Shown: positions 3,191 to 11,139 of the stretch, piece after piece
How the letters are laid out: each line of letters starts with the position of its first letter
How positions within the stretch are numbered: position 1 is the stretch's first letter
DNA from: Pseudomonadota bacterium
Lineage (GTDB): Bacteria; Pseudomonadota; Alphaproteobacteria; Rickettsiales; UBA3002
NCBI GenBank assembly: GCA_963205305.1
Contig: CAUJIC010000047.1
Location: 1-39,318 of the forward strand
Direction: 5' to 3'
DNA length: 39,318 bases
Program-made: the position numbers and the translations under genes
Notes under the pieces: model-generated
What the model was told of the DNA's origin: nothing
The model's database searches: none
What the model saw: the letters and a program-made list of their open reading frames with translations, nothing else

Positions 3191-4525
3191 TTAATACCCC
3201 CGCCATGGGTCATACAAATCCGGCATACCGATAAGTTCGGCGAGGGCCTGATAGGCCGCATCCAACTCCGTTACGAATGCGGGATCACGCAAATCCGAAA
3301 ATTGTAGGCGGTCACGGTAATGGGTTTCGACCCATTTTTTTAGGAGCAAGTATTTCTGATCCGTGAGTACCACCCCCGGATGAAGCGACTCTTCTCGTTC
3401 CGCATCCAGAACGATTCGCAACCTCAAACATGCAGGGCCACCCCCGTTACGCATACTTTCACGCACGTCTAGGTAGTGGACATGGTGGAGCGCGCCCTGC
3501 CCCATGAGCCGATCGACCACCCCCCTGACACCCGCATGATTCGAGCACTCGGAGGGCGAAACAAGGGCGAAGGTTTGGTCGGGCAATTCGAGCAGTTGCG
3601 AGTTGAATAAGTAGGTCGAAACCGCATCCTCGACACTTAACTCGTCGGCACGAACTTCAAAAAACTGTAACTCGGGGCGGGCAGCAAAATAGGCGGCGAG
3701 TTTTTTCTGGTGTTCGGGAATAAATGCCCCTTCATGGACCACCATCAGTCGGGTGGTGTTCATGGCGATCACATCGTTATGAAATACGCCCCTATCAATC
3801 GCTTCGGGGGATTGCTGCAGCAGCATAATATGCTCAGCATCGAGACCGTGAAGGCGCGCAATCGCCTCGCTTGCTGCCCGCTGTTGGCGGGGCGGATGCT
3901 TCTGGGTTCGTAAAGTTACTTCATGACTTTTACCATAGACAAAAATATTTAATGAATTTTTATTATCATTATTATTTACTCTCATATGATTAGCTGCTCC
4001 CTCGTCGGCCATCAATTCGACCGGCGGAAGCGCATTATGAATCGAAAATAATTTTTTATTATGGAAAATTCTATTGAGCAGCCGCTCGGAGAATGCTGCC
4101 TCAACACTACGATGGTAATGGCTCGTCAGATTGGCAGGCGTTAGATGGGTTTTTCCGTCGGCCGCGTCGGGGGATGGGGTCACCGTTGCGGCGTTGGCTG
4201 CCCACATAAACGACGACGAATAGAGGGCAGCGAGTAGATGGGGAGCCTGTGTATAAGCTGCATCCAAAGACTCCCCTAGCGACCCCAAAAACCCCAGGCG
4301 TTTAAGCTCAAAAACCAGCGGACGGTAGTGCGGTGGAAGGAAGGCTTGCTTCATCCCCAAGTTGCGAACAAAGAGCATTTTCTCGAGCCCTTGTAACGCC
4401 GCCATGCGCGGATTCGACACCATGCCCGCATTATGGGCAGCAGCGAGGTTTCCCGTGGCTAAGCCCGCATAGTTATGGGTTGGGCCCACCAGTCCATCGA
4501 ACTGCCACTCACGATTGCTCATCAT
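3191..4525 (-). CDS. astB: N-succinylarginine dihydrolase AstB
   Basis: A 444-residue protein matching the usual length of AstB (E. coli about 447). It begins with the family signature around EWQFDGLVGPTHNYAGLATGN and carries the guanidine-modifying fold motifs NNDNKNSLN in mid-protein and HNDVIAMNTTRLMVVHEGAF near residues 247-267. It ends with the characteristic DPWRGY. It converts N2-succinylarginine to N2-succinylornithine, ammonia and CO2, the second step of the arginine succinyltransferase (AST) pathway. Two ATG codons stand in tandem at the start (4520-4525) directly against the astD stop, so it is translationally coupled as the last gene of astA-astD-astB. Confidence 0.96.
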   Translation of the reverse strand: MMSNREWQFDGLVGPTHNYAGLATGNLAAAHNAGMVSNPRMAALQGLEKMLFVRNLGMKQAFLPPHYRPLVFELKRLGFLGSLGESLDAAYTQAPHLLAALYSSSFMWAANAATVTPSPDAADGKTHLTPANLTSHYHRSVEAAFSERLLNRIFHNKKLFSIHNALPPVELMADEGAANHMRVNNNDNKNSLNIFVYGKSHEVTLRTQKHPPRQQRAASEAIARLHGLDAEHIMLLQQSPEAIDRGVFHNDVIAMNTTRLMVVHEGAFIPEHQKKLAAYFAARPELQFFEVRADELSVEDAVSTYLFNSQLLELPDQTFALVSPSECSNHAGVRGVVDRLMGQGALHHVHYLDVRESMRNGGGPACLRLRIVLDAEREESLHPGVVLTDQKYLLLKKWVETHYRDRLQFSDLRDPAFVTELDAAYQALAELIGMPDLYDPWRGY

Positions 4526-5983
4526 CTATCCTATTGTTATTCCCGCAGGGATTTGGTTTGGGAGCGCTAGCATCCCCGACTCGACTGAGGCCACAGGGTA
4601 GGCACAATAGTCGGCCGAGTAGTAGCCAGCAGGACGGTGGTTGCCACTCAACCCGATTCCGCCGAAGGGCCCAGCACCCGAAGCGCCCGTTGTCTGGCGG
4701 TTCCAATTAATTAAGCCCGCTCTTAATTGACTACTAACCTTTTGAAACACTGCCGAATCATCGCATAGAACCGCCGCGCTTAACCCATACTGTGTACTAT
4801 TCGCGCAATCGATCGCTTCTTCCATCGTATCCACGCAATAAACCTGCAGTAATGGGCCGAAATATTCCGTATCTGGAACGTTTTTAACACCGGTCATGTC
4901 GATAATCGCAGGGGATAAAAACGGCAATCCCTCACGCAGCTGACGCATACGAAGGAGCACTTTTCCACCTAGTTTTTCAAGCGTCATTTGCGCCTCAAGT
5001 AATCGATTCGCTTCGCGCATGGAAATCACTGGCCCCATAAAGGGGGCAGGCGTTTCGTCATGCGCCCCGATAACGAGGGATGCGGAAACCTGAGTTAACT
5101 TGGCCAAAAATGCGTCGCGGCCATCCCATTTCGGTAGAACGAGCCTGCGTGCACAGGTGCAGCGCTGCCCCGTACCCGTAAACGCCGAAAGTATTGTTTC
5201 GAGCACTGCGGCCTTAATGTCCGATACCTTGCTGATAATCAATGGGTTATTGCCGCCCATCTCGAGCGCCAGCATCACCTCGGGCCGCCCTGCCAACTGG
5301 GCATGAATGGCTTTGCCTGTGGCCGAGGATCCCGTGAACAAAATGCCATCCACCGCAGCGTTGGCAAGCGCCATACCCGTCTCGCGCTCCCCTTGAATCA
5401 GATTTAACACGCCCGCAGGCAACCCCGCCGCGTCCCATTGCTTGACCATCCACTCCGCCACCATGGGCGTCTGCTCGCTAGGCTTGAAGACGATGGTGTT
5501 GCCCGCCAGCAGCGCAGGCATGATATGGCCATTGGGCAAATGGGCAGGAAAATTATAGGGTCCATACACCGCCATCACGCCATGCGGGCGGTGACGAACG
5601 ACTGCCGTGCCGACGGGCGACGTGCGCGATTTGGTGCCGGTGCGCTCTGCATAGGCTTCGCTCGCATAGGTCAGTTTGGCAACCACTGCGGCCACCTCGG
5701 ATTTAGCATCCCACATCGCCTTACCAGTCTCGTTGGCAATCGCCAGCGCCAACTCGTCCTGAGCGCCTAATATCAATGACTTAAACTTATCCACCAGCGC
5801 ATAGCGCGCCTCGTACCCAAGTGCTGCCCATTGAGGAAATGCAGCACGCGCAGCGCTTACCGCCTCACCCACTTGGGTGCCATCCGCCGCCTTGCCCTGC
5901 CACAGGGTTTTACCCGTTGCAGGGTTGGTCGATACAAAGGAATGGCTGCCAGAATCAACCCATAAGCCATTGATATACTGCAT
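4526..5983 (-). CDS. astD: Succinylglutamate-semialdehyde dehydrogenase AstD
   Basis: A 485-residue NAD-dependent aldehyde dehydrogenase. It shows the cofactor-binding stretch VYGPYNFPAHLPNGH and GNTIVFKPSEQTP, the general-base Glu in LEMGGNNP, and the nucleophile Cys in TGTGQRCTCARR. The PYNFPAHLPNGH and LEMGGNNPL variants are typical of AstD rather than of betaine or lactaldehyde dehydrogenases. It oxidises N-succinylglutamate semialdehyde to N-succinylglutamate. The start ATG has AGGGG about 6 bases upstream and lies 27 bases after astA. The middle position in astA-astD-astB supports the assignment. Confidence 0.95.
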   Translation of the reverse strand: MQYINGLWVDSGSHSFVSTNPATGKTLWQGKAADGTQVGEAVSAARAAFPQWAALGYEARYALVDKFKSLILGAQDELALAIANETGKAMWDAKSEVAAVVAKLTYASEAYAERTGTKSRTSPVGTAVVRHRPHGVMAVYGPYNFPAHLPNGHIMPALLAGNTIVFKPSEQTPMVAEWMVKQWDAAGLPAGVLNLIQGERETGMALANAAVDGILFTGSSATGKAIHAQLAGRPEVMLALEMGGNNPLIISKVSDIKAAVLETILSAFTGTGQRCTCARRLVLPKWDGRDAFLAKLTQVSASLVIGAHDETPAPFMGPVISMREANRLLEAQMTLEKLGGKVLLRMRQLREGLPFLSPAIIDMTGVKNVPDTEYFGPLLQVYCVDTMEEAIDCANSTQYGLSAAVLCDDSAVFQKVSSQLRAGLINWNRQTTGASGAGPFGGIGLSGNHRPAGYYSADYCAYPVASVESGMLALPNQIPAGITIG

Positions 5984-6010: not shown

Positions 6011-7027
6011 CTAGACGGGATAATAACGCACCGTGTCGCCAACGCTCACCCCTGCTCTGCGTGCCAAGCGCGGGGTGATACTCACGCCACCCGCAACCTC
6101 CTCGAGCCGCCCGACCGCGCAACGAAAGCCTGTGAATTGGTCGTTACTCACCATAAATTTACTGGTTTCCTCTTGCAATTCCGCTATCGTAATAATCTTG
6201 GCCAGCTTAGCTTTTGCCACCACATCGATGCTGGTACGCTCGGCAATCAGGGTAGGCCCGCCATCGAAAATGTCGACATAGCCCGTATATTTAAACCCCT
6301 GCCGTTCGAGCATTGCCTTCGCAGGCTCAGAGGCAGAGTTGACCATGCCCACTGCCGCCTGTGCCGATTTAGGCATGAGGCTGAGGTAAATTGGGTATTT
6401 GGGCATCAGATCGTTGATGAACTGGTTGCCCTGCGTGGCGTTGATATAATCCGCCTTGGCGAAGCCCATCTGGAAGAACTTCTTGGGCAAGGCATTGTAA
6501 AATGGTGCATTTCCCTCGACATCATGCACGCCGCGCATTTCCGCAATCACCTGATCGGCGAAATGCTGAGGAAACGCCGCCATGAACATGAACCGCGCCA
6601 GCGACATCATTTTGCCCAGTCGGTCGCGCCGATAGGAAGGTTCGAGGAACAGTGAACCCACTTCGGTCGCCCCCGTTAAATCATTCGTCACCTGCAGCAT
6701 GGTCTGCTTGCTGAAAATATCGAGCTGCGTCGATACTTGGGTGATTGTCGTCAGCTTATAGGAATAAAAGGGCTGGCTGAGGCCGATATGCGCCTTAATG
6801 CCGCACGTGCCTGCAATATGGCCGCCATTTTCGCTATCTTCGAGCACGAAAAAGAAGCTTTCTTGGCCTTTTTTGGGGTATTGCCCCGCAAAACTAGCCA
6901 CCGATGCCTCAATTTTCTCGCGCAGCACCGCTTCATCGGGCGGCAGCGATGTCATTCCAAACCCCGCTTGGCGGGCAAGCTCGAGCACAGCGGCGTGGTC
7001 GTTGATCGTCGCAGGGCGCAAAAACAC
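6011..7027 (-). CDS. astA: Arginine N-succinyltransferase AstA
   Basis: A 338-residue protein of the AstA family (usual length about 340) with a GNAT-like fold. It transfers succinyl from succinyl-CoA to the alpha-amino group of arginine, the committing step of the AST pathway. Family landmarks include the N-terminal LRPATINDHAAVLELA, GTCGIKAHIGLSQPFYSYK, EVGSLFLEPSYRRDRLGKMMSLARF, and the C-terminal FDGGPTLIAERTSID. The start is a GTG (7025-7027) with GAGG 7 bases upstream. It is the first gene of astA-astD-astB. A short inverted repeat (TATGC-AAGCA-GCATA, 7047-7061) lies just before it and may be an operator. It is divergent from umuD. Confidence 0.95.
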   Translation of the reverse strand: MFLRPATINDHAAVLELARQAGFGMTSLPPDEAVLREKIEASVASFAGQYPKKGQESFFFVLEDSENGGHIAGTCGIKAHIGLSQPFYSYKLTTITQVSTQLDIFSKQTMLQVTNDLTGATEVGSLFLEPSYRRDRLGKMMSLARFMFMAAFPQHFADQVIAEMRGVHDVEGNAPFYNALPKKFFQMGFAKADYINATQGNQFINDLMPKYPIYLSLMPKSAQAAVGMVNSASEPAKAMLERQGFKYTGYVDIFDGGPTLIAERTSIDVVAKAKLAKIITIAELQEETSKFMVSNDQFTGFRCAVGRLEEVAGGVSITPRLARRAGVSVGDTVRYYPV

Positions 7028-7061: not shown

Positions 7062-7204
7062 CGCCTCCTATCAAGCATACTCAAGTGGCAGCTTGGCATC
7101 AGGTTTAACGCCATCTCCTACCCTCTCGCGCTGTGATAAAATCGCCGCTTGACCTGCCACGCGCTTTTGTGCATCTTGATTTTCGGGACAAGAATGGAGG
7201 CGTT

Positions 7205-7771
7205 ATGAAACAAGCCAGTAAAAAATCATCGGCCACGGGCACAAGCAATGTCACCCCCATCCATGGCGGCAAACGCCAAGGTGCTGGGCGGCCCAAGGGC
7301 AGCGGACGCTTTGGCGAAATTACCGAGCGCGTGCGCGTACCTGCCAGCTTGGTGGGGGATGTGATTCGATTTGTGGAATCGAAGGCCTTCAAAATCCCAC
7401 TCTATAGCGCCACGGTGCAGGCAGGCTCACCCGCCTTTGCGGATGACCACGTGGAAACGCGGATGGACTTGAACGCGCACCTTGTCCGTAAGCCCGAGGA
7501 AACTTTCTTGGTACGGGCGGCGGGTGATTCCATGATCGATGCCAATATCCGCGATGGTGACCTGCTCGTGGTCGATCGCGCGGCGGCCCCCAAACACGGC
7601 AAAATCGTCATTGCGGCGGTGGATGGCGCACTGACGGTGAAATTCCTCATTATCAAGCAGGGCCGCACCTACCTCATGCCCGCTAATCCCGAATATTCGC
7701 CCATCCCCGTGAACCCCGAAACGGGCGTGACTATTTGGGGTGTCGTCACCAGTTCGGTGCGCGAACACTAG
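7205..7771 (+). CDS. umuD: UmuD-like self-cleaving S24 peptidase (orphan)
   Basis: A 188-residue protein of the LexA/UmuD S24 family. The start at 7205 is chosen because GGAGG lies 4 bases upstream; an in-frame ATG at 7133 has no ribosome site. The N-terminus has the GKRQGAGRPKGSGRFGE segment of long-form UmuD proteins. The Ala73-Gly74 self-cleavage site, Ser109 (GDSMID) and Lys146 (LTVKFL) are all present, and the 37-residue Ser-Lys spacing equals that of UmuD. There is no helix-turn-helix, so it is not LexA. Its usual role is, after RecA-induced cleavage, as the subunit of translesion polymerase V. No umuC or dnaE2 follows, and no GTTC-N7-GTTC SOS box was seen upstream. Confidence 0.85.
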   Translation: MKQASKKSSATGTSNVTPIHGGKRQGAGRPKGSGRFGEITERVRVPASLVGDVIRFVESKAFKIPLYSATVQAGSPAFADDHVETRMDLNAHLVRKPEETFLVRAAGDSMIDANIRDGDLLVVDRAAAPKHGKIVIAAVDGALTVKFLIIKQGRTYLMPANPEYSPIPVNPETGVTIWGVVTSSVREH

Positions 7772-7926: not shown

Positions 7927-9189
7927 ATGTCCGAACTTCCTCCTAAAACCCACAATCTTGGCGCGCTGAGCCAAGAATTGATTGCCAAAGGCCGCCACTA
8001 TTATGTGCCCAACTACAAACCGCGCGAGATGATTCTCGATCACGGAAAAGGCTCCACCGTGTGGGATTTAGATGGCCAAGACTACATCGATTTAGGCTCG
8101 GGCATTGCCGTGTGCAGCCTTGGGCACCAAGACCCTGATTTGCTTGCTGCGCTCGATACCCAGTCGCGCAAACTCTGGCATACCAGCAATATCTTTTTCA
8201 CCGAGCCGCCGATTCGCTTGGCTGAAAAACTGGTGGAATCCTCGGGCTTTGCCAAAAAAGTATTCTTCAGCAATTCAGGCGCGGAGGCCAACGAAGCAGC
8301 CATCAAGCTCGCTCGCAAATACGCTGCCGACCAAGGAAAGCCGCCTGAAAAACGCAACATCATCAGCTTCAACGGCTCCTTCCATGGCCGTACCTTGGCC
8401 ACCGTCACCCTCACCGCTCAACCCAAATACCAAATCGGATTCGAGCCCACGCCCGCTGGCTTCATCTACTGCGACATCTTCAACGATGAAGCAGCCATCG
8501 AGGCATTGGTCGATGATTCCATTTGCGCGATCTTTGTGGAACCCGTGCAAGGTGAAGGCGGTGTGATGCCTGCGAAAGCTGGCTTTTTGAAACATCTGCG
8601 TGCCTTGTGCGATAAGGTCGGCGCGCTGCTAATTGTCGATGAAATTCAGGCAGGGCTTGGCCGCACGGGAACATTATTTGCCTACGAGCAAGATGGCATT
8701 AAACCCGATGTGGTTACCCTTGCCAAAGCCCTTGGCGGCGGGCTGCCGATTGGGGCGATGCTAGTGGGCGATAAAGCAGCCGATGTGCTGCAATTTGGCA
8801 CGCACGGCACCACCTTTGGCGGCAACCCTGTCATGGCGGCGGTGGCGCTGGCATCGGTGACCAAATTGGCAACGCCAGCGATTGCAGCGAATGTAAAAAA
8901 GCAAGGCGATGCGCTGCGTAAGGGGCTTGAAGCCATCAATGCCGAGCTTGGCCTGTTCAAGGAAATCCGCGGCCGCGGGCTGATGATTGGCGCGGAATTG
9001 GTTGCCGAACATGCAGGCAAATCGGGCGACATCTCGGAGCTTGCCCGCAAGGAGGGCACGCTGGTGCTGGTTGCTGGGCCGAACGTCATGCGCTTTTTGC
9101 CTCCATTGGTGATTACGGATGCCGAGCTGGCCGAGGGCCTGAAACGCTTTAAAGCCGCACTCATGAAATACAAGGCGGGTATTGCCTGA
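7927..9189 (+). CDS. argD: Acetylornithine/succinylornithine aminotransferase (ArgD/AstC)
   Basis: A 420-residue class III PLP-dependent aminotransferase. It shows the PLP-phosphate motif NSGAEANEAAIK, the FHGRTLATVTLT stretch, the cofactor Asp in IVDEIQAGLGRTG, and the Schiff-base Lys267 in TLAKALGGGLPIGAM, all typical of ArgD/AstC. It can act in arginine synthesis (N-acetylornithine) or in the AST pathway (N2-succinylornithine to succinylglutamate semialdehyde); the family is commonly bifunctional. The nearby astABD operon and the absence of another astC in the window favour a catabolic role, though it lies on the opposite strand from astABD. No clear ribosome site precedes the ATG. Its TGA overlaps the next ATG by one base. 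Confidence 0.9.
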   Translation: MSELPPKTHNLGALSQELIAKGRHYYVPNYKPREMILDHGKGSTVWDLDGQDYIDLGSGIAVCSLGHQDPDLLAALDTQSRKLWHTSNIFFTEPPIRLAEKLVESSGFAKKVFFSNSGAEANEAAIKLARKYAADQGKPPEKRNIISFNGSFHGRTLATVTLTAQPKYQIGFEPTPAGFIYCDIFNDEAAIEALVDDSICAIFVEPVQGEGGVMPAKAGFLKHLRALCDKVGALLIVDEIQAGLGRTGTLFAYEQDGIKPDVVTLAKALGGGLPIGAMLVGDKAADVLQFGTHGTTFGGNPVMAAVALASVTKLATPAIAANVKKQGDALRKGLEAINAELGLFKEIRGRGLMIGAELVAEHAGKSGDISELARKEGTLVLVAGPNVMRFLPPLVITDAELAEGLKRFKAALMKYKAGIA

Positions 9190-10397
9190 TGGATACAGCC
9201 ACACGCGCGGTGCTTGATTGGGTCGCAACACAACGCGAACCCATGATAACGCTGACCGAGCGCTGGGCCTCCATCAATTCGGGCAGCTATAACCTTGAAG
9301 GTTTACGCGCCATGCGCGCCGCACTGGCGGAGGCTTTTGCGCCGCTCGGCGGCGTGGCCGAGGTGCTGCCGCTTGCCCCCATCAGCCAAATCAATGCAAA
9401 GGGCGAATCTGTAAGCATCGCCATGGCCGAAGCGCTTAGCATTAAAAAGCGTCCGAGCGCACTTACGCAAATCCTCCTCGTGGGGCATATGGATACGGTG
9501 TATAGCATCGACCATCCCTTTCAAAAAACTACCAAACTTTCCGAGAATATATTGAACGGCCCTGGTGTGGCCGATCTCAAAGGCGGCCTTGCCGTCATGC
9601 TCCACGCGCTGATGGCGCTCGAACGTAGCCCATGGGCAGAGAATATTGGCTGGCAGGTGCTGCTCAACCCCGATGAAGAAATTGGCAGTGTCGCAAGTGA
9701 CCCGTTGTTAAAAGCCGCCGCTGCGGGCAAACAACTTGGCCTTGTGTATGAACCCGCCTTGGCGGATGGCACCTTGGCAGGGGCGCGCAAAGGCAGCGGT
9801 AATTTTACGCTGGTGGTGCGCGGCCGCGCGGCGCATGCTGGCAGAAATCCTGAGGATGGGCGCAACGCCATCGTAGCCCTTGCCGACATCACCCAACGTG
9901 TGTTTGCACTCAATGGCAGGCGTGAGGGGCTAACCCTCAACCCCGCGAAAATCGAGGGTGGCGGTGCGCTCAACGTGGTGCCTGATTTGGCCATACTGCG
10001 TTTCAACATCCGCACCCGTGAATTGGCGGATGAAGCATGGGTGCTAGGCGAGCTGCATAAGCTTGTGGATGAATGGTGCAATAAGGATGGCTATCAGGCT
10101 GAACTCCATGGCCATTTTACCCGTAAGCCCAAACCCATGTCGCCTGAGGTTCAGAAGGTATTCGACCTTGTGCAGCAGTGCGGGGCGGAGCTTGGCCTAA
10201 CGATTGGCATCAAACCCTCGGGCGGGTGCTGCGATGGGAATAATTTATGGCACCATGGCCTGCCCAATGTCGATACGCTCGGTGTGCGCGGCGCGAACAT
10301 CCATTCGGCGGATGAGGTGGCCTATCTCGATAGCTTCGTCGAACGCGCCCAGCTCTCGGCGCTCATCTTGATGACGCTTGCGAAGAGCGCTGCCTAA
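9189..10397 (+). CDS. M20 metallopeptidase, carboxypeptidase-G2-like (candidate succinylglutamate desuccinylase)
   Basis: A 402-residue zinc hydrolase of the M20 family. The full metal and catalytic set can be placed: His100 and Asp102 (GHMDTVY), Asp129 (GVADLKGG), Glu163/Glu164 (PDEEIGS), Glu188 (VYEPAL) and His372 (NIHSADE). The spacings of 29, 35, 24 and 184 residues almost match Pseudomonas glutamate carboxypeptidase G2 (29, 35, 24, 185), which releases glutamate from N-acylglutamates. It overlaps the upstream aminotransferase by one base (TGATG), so the two are translationally coupled. The AST pathway ends with hydrolysis of N-succinylglutamate by AstE, a different (M14-like) family not seen here. 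I infer that this protein may do that step. Other amidohydrolase roles remain possible. Confidence 0.85.
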
Positions 10398-11026
10398 CCA
10401 AACACCTTGCCAAACTGCTGCTTCAGCACCGCATCCACCTCGTCCATCGTCGCCATCACCCCAAGCTGGTGCAGGCTCGTCACCCCAAATTCACGGATGC
10501 CACAGGGAACAATCCCAGCATAATGCGATAAATCGGGGTTCACGTTCAGGGCAATGCCGTGACTCGTCACCCATTTTTGCACCCGCACACCGAGCGCCGC
10601 AATTTTCGCCTCGCCGCGCGGTGTATTCACCCACACCCCCACGCGCCCATCGCGTAAAAACCCCTCAATGCCAAACTGGGCAAGGGTGAGGATAATCCAC
10701 TGCTCCAGCTGCTTCACATAGGCACGCAAATCTGGTTCTTGTCCCTTGGCGGCGGCACGTTTTTTGAGATCGAGTATGAGGTATACCACCCGCTGGTTGG
10801 GGCCATGATAGGTCACCTGCCCGCCGCGTCCCGTTTCGTAGGTGGGAATGGCTTCGCCCAGCACATCGCCCACCTTGGCACTGGTGCCGAGTGTGTAGAG
10901 TGGCGGGTGCTCCACCAGCCACACCAACTCCTCGGCTTTGCCTTGCTGGATTGCCTCTACCCGTGCTGCCATCGTGGCGAGTGCATCTGGGTAGGTAGTG
11001 AGTCCTTGGGTTATTTTCCATTCCAT
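10394..11026 (-). CDS. lipB: Octanoyltransferase LipB
   Basis: A 210-residue LipB (E. coli 213). It moves the octanoyl group from acyl carrier protein to lipoyl domains of the 2-oxoacid dehydrogenases and the glycine cleavage H protein. The motifs [12 protein letters not shown], the Lys in [16 protein letters not shown] and the nucleophile Cys in [13 protein letters not shown] are intact. An upstream in-frame ATG at 11069-11071 would add 15 residues. The ATG at 11024-11026 is preferred because family similarity starts there and a promoter-like TTGCGT-18-TATAGC ends 6 bases before it. The gene converges on the M20 hydrolase with a 4-base overlap. Confidence 0.95.
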
Positions 11027-11032
11027 GGGGCA

Positions 11033-11062
11033 GCTATAGCCCACTCTGCCGCGCCAACGCAA
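11033..11062 (-). promoter_or_regulatory. Predicted lipB promoter, leaderless type
   Basis: On the minus strand TTGCGT (11057-11062), an 18-base spacer and TATAGC (11033-11038) are followed after 6 bases by the lipB ATG. This places transcription initiation at about the A of ATG. No Shine-Dalgarno is visible. Confidence 0.45.
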
Positions 11063-11139
11063 CCGCACCATGTACTATTAGCGATGCTTCTACACTAATC
11101 GCTTGCCCCCTCGCCCAACATTTGCTAACCCGCACCTCC

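Follow-up and report, generated by a model that had tools for sequence, protein, structure and literature searches.

A zinc hydrolase of the M20 family as the likely replacement for AstE in the last step of arginine catabolism by succinylation

In the arginine succinyltransferase (AST) pathway, AstA succinylates arginine and AstB frees ammonia and CO2 to give N-succinylornithine. An aminotransferase then forms N-succinylglutamate semialdehyde, and AstD oxidises this semialdehyde to N-succinylglutamate. The usual enzyme of the last step is AstE (TIGR03242), an M14-like protein. Two other enzymes are relevant here: carboxypeptidase G2 (CPG2), which frees glutamate from N-acylglutamates, and DapE, an enzyme of the M20 fold that removes a succinyl group. 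The subject of this work is a gene for an M20 metallohydrolase of the family PRK07338 (NCBIfam NF005602), a family that carries the bare name 'hydrolase' without a reaction. The gene lies on contig CAUJIC010000047.1 of assembly GCA_963205305.1 (Alphaproteobacteria, Rickettsiales, UBA3002), which is contig 47 in a genome of 1.82 Mb and 80 contigs that is 95.4% complete; the whole stretch analysed, positions 1 to 39,318 (39,318 nucleotides), is called the window. With high probability the PRK07338 protein is a zinc-dependent N-succinyl-L-glutamate desuccinylase that takes the place of AstE. The two proteins would share one reaction and one place in the pathway and occupy the same genomic niche, yet they belong to unrelated families and folds. 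We infer which reaction takes place, on which substrate, and what the single residues named below do; for the function, the grounds are genomic linkage and the complementary distribution of the two enzymes. The genes concerned are the following.

3191..4525, minus strand: astB, N-succinylarginine dihydrolase (PF04996, 544 bits; NF009789, 545 bits, cut-off 452)
4526..5983, minus strand: astD, succinylglutamate-semialdehyde dehydrogenase (TIGR03240, 696 bits, cut-off 579)
6011..7027, minus strand: astA, arginine N-succinyltransferase (PF04958, 403 bits; TIGR03243, 382 bits, cut-off 284)
7927..9189, plus strand: class-III aminotransferase of the astC/argD type, proposed succinylornithine transaminase (TIGR00707, 476 bits, cut-off 410)
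9189..10397, plus strand: M20 metallohydrolase, NCBIfam PRK07338 (NF005602), proposed N-succinylglutamate desuccinylase (575 bits, cut-off 357)

The M20 open reading frame (ORF) is intact, starts with ATG and encodes 402 amino acids. Its start codon (9189-9191) shares base 9189 with the stop codon TGA of the aminotransferase gene (9187-9189), which is the one-base overlap that an earlier, sequence-only reading of the window had described. The profiles also confirm what that reading had listed, namely astA, astD, astB and an astC-type aminotransferase, the last through the joint TIGR00707 model. The AST pathway is thus represented by astA, astB, astD and a transaminase, with the transaminase under the cut-off of the stricter astC model TIGR03246 (507 bits against 610) and astB under that of TIGR03241 (487 against 538 bits). 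The label 'astC-type' seems a fair one for the aminotransferase, the profile score leaving the choice between ArgD and AstC undecided.

In the sampled genomes the M20 protein and AstE exclude one another. A class sample of 289 genomes contained 10 genomes above the PRK07338 cut-off and 13 above the AstB cut-off, and all 10 were among the 13 (one further genome gave a 21-bit AstB match). The 10 family members scored at least 552 bits and the next-best M20 protein 255. None of the 13 AstB-positive genomes had an AstE above the TIGR03242 cut-off; three weak partial matches to this model (21–32 bits) were seen in M20-positive genomes of the sample. For the phylum sample of 397 genomes the thresholds were E <= 1e-100 for M20 and E <= 1e-20 for AstE, and the AstB, M20 and AstE draws were taken as the same 397 genomes, as their counts and handles agree. 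AstB was detected in 120 genomes, M20 in 42 and AstE in 89. The 120 AstB-positive genomes comprised 41 with M20 only, 76 with AstE only, none with both and three with neither (G094, G258 and G623). M20 occurred without AstB in a single genome (G575) and AstE without AstB in 13; the M20 gene was found within 10 kb of astB in 38 of 43 cases, and no family code was common to the M20 and AstE lists of this sample. Only two of the 14 named control genomes contained AstB: E. coli, which showed AstB and AstE and no M20 protein of the family, and Caulobacter vibrioides, which showed AstB and M20 and no match to three AstE profiles. The M20 family extends past the window, some Pseudomonadota outside the class also carrying it.

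The linkage of the M20 gene to ast genes is evidence separate from this split. Relatives were fetched from genome contigs by M20 similarity alone (208, of which the best 80 were taken), and 78 of these 80 loci had astA at most 5 kb from the M20 gene (tblastn). No match to E. coli AstE at E 1e-10 was found in the 80 loci. In one of the loci without astA (L023) the contig stops 0.2 kb past the M20 gene. As a control we examined 20 lower-ranked M20 genes, under the family cut-off, and none had ast genes in its 1.5-kb flanks, in contrast to nine of the 10 family members from the same search, which showed astA; the tenth member is the window itself, where the neighbour is the aminotransferase gene. 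This control, too, is separate from the AstE/M20 split. The placement of the M20 gene varies among loci: it stands before astA-astD, before astA-astB, after astD or astB, or inverted, as in the window. In G575, a genome with no AstB match, M20, astA and astD are together, and the same three genes are together in G612, G494 and G577 with astB on a separate contig. The retention of M20 with astA and astD where astB is missing from the group suggests a step near AstA and AstD and not near AstB. The M20 gene is tied more tightly to astA and astD than to astC, and in general it accompanies the AstA/AstD end of the pathway, where an enzyme that uses the product of AstD would be expected. The sequence-only reading had proposed, from this window, a non-orthologous replacement for the last AST step. 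Comparison across genomes supports the replacement through linkage and exclusion and corrects its extent, which reaches well past this one stretch: of the 13 AstB-positive genomes of the class sample, 10 have the M20 protein.

The M20 protein is a full-length match to NF005602 (575.3 bits), with the Pfam domains Peptidase_M20 (PF01546) and M20_dimer (PF07687) above cut-off, and no AstE family was among the families listed for it in the NCBIfam and Pfam scans. All 42 rows of the family alignment match PRK07338 as well, and the difference from the model as it stands is the reaction proposed here, which the model name lacks. The metal ligands His100, Asp129, Glu164, Glu188 and His372 are present; these five, and the catalytic Glu163 (the presumed general base), do not vary in any of the 42 aligned rows, the window row included. 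The ligand spacing in the alignment is 29/35/24/184, compared with 29/35/24/185 in CPG2, in agreement with the near-identity that had been noticed from the sequence; the aligned CPG2 residues are those which we take to be H112, D141, E176, E200 and H385. An AlphaFold2 model of the protein (mean pLDDT 96.4) had CPG2 (PDB 1cg2, 6xj5) as its top solved fold, with Z scores of 45.1 and 44.9, rmsd values of 4.3 and 4.2 and 384 residues aligned, and CPG2 was also the best solved sequence match (about 25% identity). The next solved folds were a putative acetylornithine deacetylase (3pfo, Z 38.3) and DapE with product (Z 36.7-37.2). The earlier description 'carboxypeptidase-G2-like' is thus apt for the fold and the metal site and fails for the family: the protein stays under the cut-off of the glutamate-carboxypeptidase model PRK06133, to which CPG2 belongs (199.8 bits against 349), and, unlike CPG2, it is linked to ast genes. 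Residues that are invariant in the family and occur in none of eight other M20 proteins (the DapE of the source genome and seven lower-ranked M20s) include Arg219, Lys315 and Cys348; CPG2 has an alanine opposite Arg219. Asn351 was rejected as a family-specific residue, as it occurs in three of the eight.

In the proposed mechanism the M20 enzyme would hydrolyse the amide of N-succinylglutamate, the AstD product, to succinate and glutamate, completing the AST pathway. The five ligands would hold two metal ions and Glu163 would serve as the general base. The glutamate moiety of the substrate would be bound by His216, Asn262 and Arg275, the CPG2 counterparts of which bind glutamate. The charged residues Arg219 and Lys315 could bind the additional carboxylate that the succinyl group brings. 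The chemistry fits: CPG2 acts on N-acylglutamates, a class that includes N-succinylglutamate, and DapE, like the proposed enzyme, releases a succinyl group.

The whole source genome gave no AstE match with PF04952, TIGR03242 or the broad catalytic-domain profile PF24827, and the same three profile searches were positive in E. coli, used as a control. The absence of astE from the window, remarked on in the sequence-only reading, therefore holds for the rest of the genome with these three profiles. A broad-family AstE is ruled out there, PF24827 being without a match, and the profiles used give no other desuccinylase candidate in the source genome. It contains two M20 matches, the gene at 9189-10397 and a DapE (501 bits, cut-off 284) adjoining dapD (419 bits, cut-off 375); the presence of this separate DapE above cut-off beside dapD rules out the M20 protein as the DapE of the genome. 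ArgJ is also present, and an ArgE-like M20 protein is therefore unneeded for arginine synthesis; a biosynthetic ArgE role was rejected on this ground. A second argD-type gene (PRK01278, 453 bits, cut-off 372) adjoins argF.

These genes bear directly on the idea that the substrate of the M20 protein is a different intermediate carrying a succinyl or acetyl group, such as N-succinylornithine or, in the manner of ArgE, N-acetylornithine. ArgE and DapE are M20 relatives, the protein gives weak matches to their models, and the coupled aminotransferase may use both acetylornithine and succinylornithine. However, the scores are far under the cut-offs of both models (65 bits against 298 for the ArgE model TIGR01892 and 46 against 362 for the DapE model TIGR01246), and with DapE, ArgJ and the second argD-type gene in the genome the rival jobs are already taken. 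An enzyme that desuccinylated succinylornithine would, moreover, short-circuit the pathway and leave no desuccinylase after AstD, and the M20 protein is not found together with AstE. We regard this alternative as highly unlikely. There is a very slim chance that the true desuccinylase is another M14-type protein, either one recognised by PF24827, such as those beside rimK, or one that escapes the profiles, and that the M20 protein is an accessory. PF24827 was searched in 80 genomes (44 M20-positive, four AstB-positive without M20 and 32 AstB-negative ones picked by hand) and its proteins were found in 15 of the 44 M20-positive genomes. The remaining 29, the source genome among them, gave no match, and such proteins were commoner in the hand-picked AstB-negative genomes (22 of 32); the PF24827 proteins cannot be the general AST desuccinylase of M20-positive genomes. 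Two of the three weak TIGR03242 matches mentioned above were examined (L126 and L127), each a 347-amino-acid gene at 1363-2406. The L126 gene, whose protein scores 132 bits with PF24827, directly follows rimK, as identified by profile score, and the L127 gene, which looks the same, directly follows a gene that resembles rimK. No ast genes adjoin either of them in the 3.3-kb stretches seen, and at E 1e-20 their sole NCBIfam match is the deacetylase DoeB, below cut-off. In some Alphaproteobacteria such rimK-adjacent AstE/AspA-domain proteins could be mis-annotated as succinylglutamate desuccinylase.

A profile-escaping gene of the kind that this second alternative supposes does exist, in two of the AstB-positive genomes with neither enzyme (G094 and G623). 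Both belong to one family in the window's own order and have a gene of 405-406 amino acids next to astB, at these positions.

L192:7768-8985, minus strand: diverged AstE-like gene beside astB
L194:10232-11452, plus strand: diverged AstE-like gene beside astB

The two copies are 75.6% identical and contain HGNE and DIHSARG motifs resembling those of E. coli AstE, to which the local match is 29% over 96 columns (E 0.002 in a one-sequence comparison). No NCBIfam match was obtained for the G094 copy at E 0.001 or for the G623 copy at E 1e-20, and no Pfam match for the G094 copy at E 0.001; the G623 copy matches PF24827 at E 0.08 only. Judged by its motifs, the gene is probably a strongly diverged M14-type AstE and a third solution for the last AST step. 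It was seen only in genomes where M20 is absent, which speaks against the second alternative. The last alternative is that of a hitch-hiker, in which an ancestral ast operon by chance carried an M20 gene for peptide scavenging. Scavenging roles are frequent among M20 enzymes, and the labels switch independently only a few times on the AstB trees described below. Yet the linkage persists through rearranged gene orders, M20 keeps its place with astA-astD when astB is missing or lies on a separate contig, and without M20 many genomes would be left with no recognised desuccinylase; this alternative appears extremely improbable. The assignment of PRK07338 as the AST desuccinylase is well supported by comparative genomics, and the finding beneath it is real.

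Several points weigh against this assignment. No mutant phenotype was found, the activity being reached by inference, and the likeness of the fold to CPG2 and DapE leaves the substrate unfixed. The source genome is incomplete, and profiles can miss a diverged AstE: PF24827 and TIGR03242 miss the G094/G623 gene, which was itself used as a query on the window only and not on the whole source genome. Two AstB-positive genomes, G258 of the phylum sample and G099 of the class sample, have neither AstE nor M20. No candidate desuccinylase was seen in the ORF lists of the stretches read from them, and the rest of each genome was covered by the NF005602, TIGR03242 and PF24827 searches only. One ORF from each was scanned, these being an EAL protein and an alpha/beta hydrolase; G099 also has one PF24827 match of 24 bits, below cut-off. 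In G099 astA, astD and astB are together, and in G258 astB is without astA or astD in the stretch read. As to linkage, in locus L004 lipB and an aminotransferase gene precede M20, and the 3.3 kb that follow M20 contain no astA; in G408 the M20 gene and astA-astD-astB are on different contigs.

The mutual exclusion, in addition, rests on few independent switches. In a first AstB tree, with 52 rows, those labelled AstE formed one group (98/95) that splits the M20 rows. A second tree, with 64 rows and a wider range of AstE families, required six changes for all labels combined, compared with 24 in shuffles. Since label changes on the AstB trees are few, the exclusion reflects few switches. The trees include 16 (52 rows) and 31 (64 rows) of the 76 genomes with AstB and AstE, plus E. 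coli. Eight rows of the 52-row tree were dropped from the 64-row tree before the count, two for long branches (L006 and L198) and six to thin near relatives (L138, L129, L132, L135, L153 and L011). The Fisher p-values for the AstE/M20 split are very small; they ignore relatedness and overstate the independent evidence, and were not used as such.

Many bacteria that succinylate arginine lack the usual last enzyme, and an unrelated zinc hydrolase occupies its place and very probably takes over its work. It is also rather likely that in Alphaproteobacteria (Sphingomonadales, Caulobacter and others) and in some other Pseudomonadota the AST desuccinylase is usually PRK07338, the last step being solved in at least three ways: by AstE, by M20 and by the diverged AstE-like gene beside astB. 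If the assignment is true, a widespread family annotated merely as 'hydrolase' gains a function, and an apparent gap in arginine catabolism is closed in a large bacterial group that includes the model organism Caulobacter. Annotation based on AstE would score AST pathways of the M20 type as incomplete, and could misassign the step to the rimK-adjacent AstE/AspA-domain proteins. AstE and the M20 protein, two metallohydrolases with unrelated folds, form a clear candidate pair for non-orthologous replacement. A search by title and abstract of open-licence PubMed Central full text, a scope outside which lie supplements, subscription journals, preprints and pathway and fitness databases, returned no report of an M20 replacement of AstE. 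The word 'desuccinylase' does not occur in the main text of the GapMind paper on catabolism (PMC9007349), and the passages concerned of the GapMind paper on biosynthesis treat other steps (PMC7311316). A Caulobacter transcriptome paper gives CC0583 as succinylarginine dihydrolase (PMC4830024).

In gene order the window differs from L001-L003, its closest relatives (68-71% identity). These have the aminotransferase, M20, astA, astD and astB genes in this order on one strand (the L001 contig terminates inside astB), whereas in the window astA-astD-astB is located on the other side of the aminotransferase gene and on the opposite strand. Two other genes flank the aminotransferase-M20 pair.

7133..7771, plus strand: S24-peptidase gene (UmuD/LexA-like), between astA and the aminotransferase gene
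10394..11071, minus strand: lipB, after the M20 gene

The S24-peptidase gene sits where the order of the window departs from that of the closest relatives. Nine of the 13 genomes with an AstE-like match and no AstB come from one genus (g315), and the AstE-like protein of AstB-less genomes may have another role. Locus L013, whose row was left out of both AstB trees, is on a contig labelled Verrucomicrobia, and its AstB groups with Nevskia in a tree that was otherwise discarded; this placement would reflect an error of binning or labelling, or else a recent transfer.

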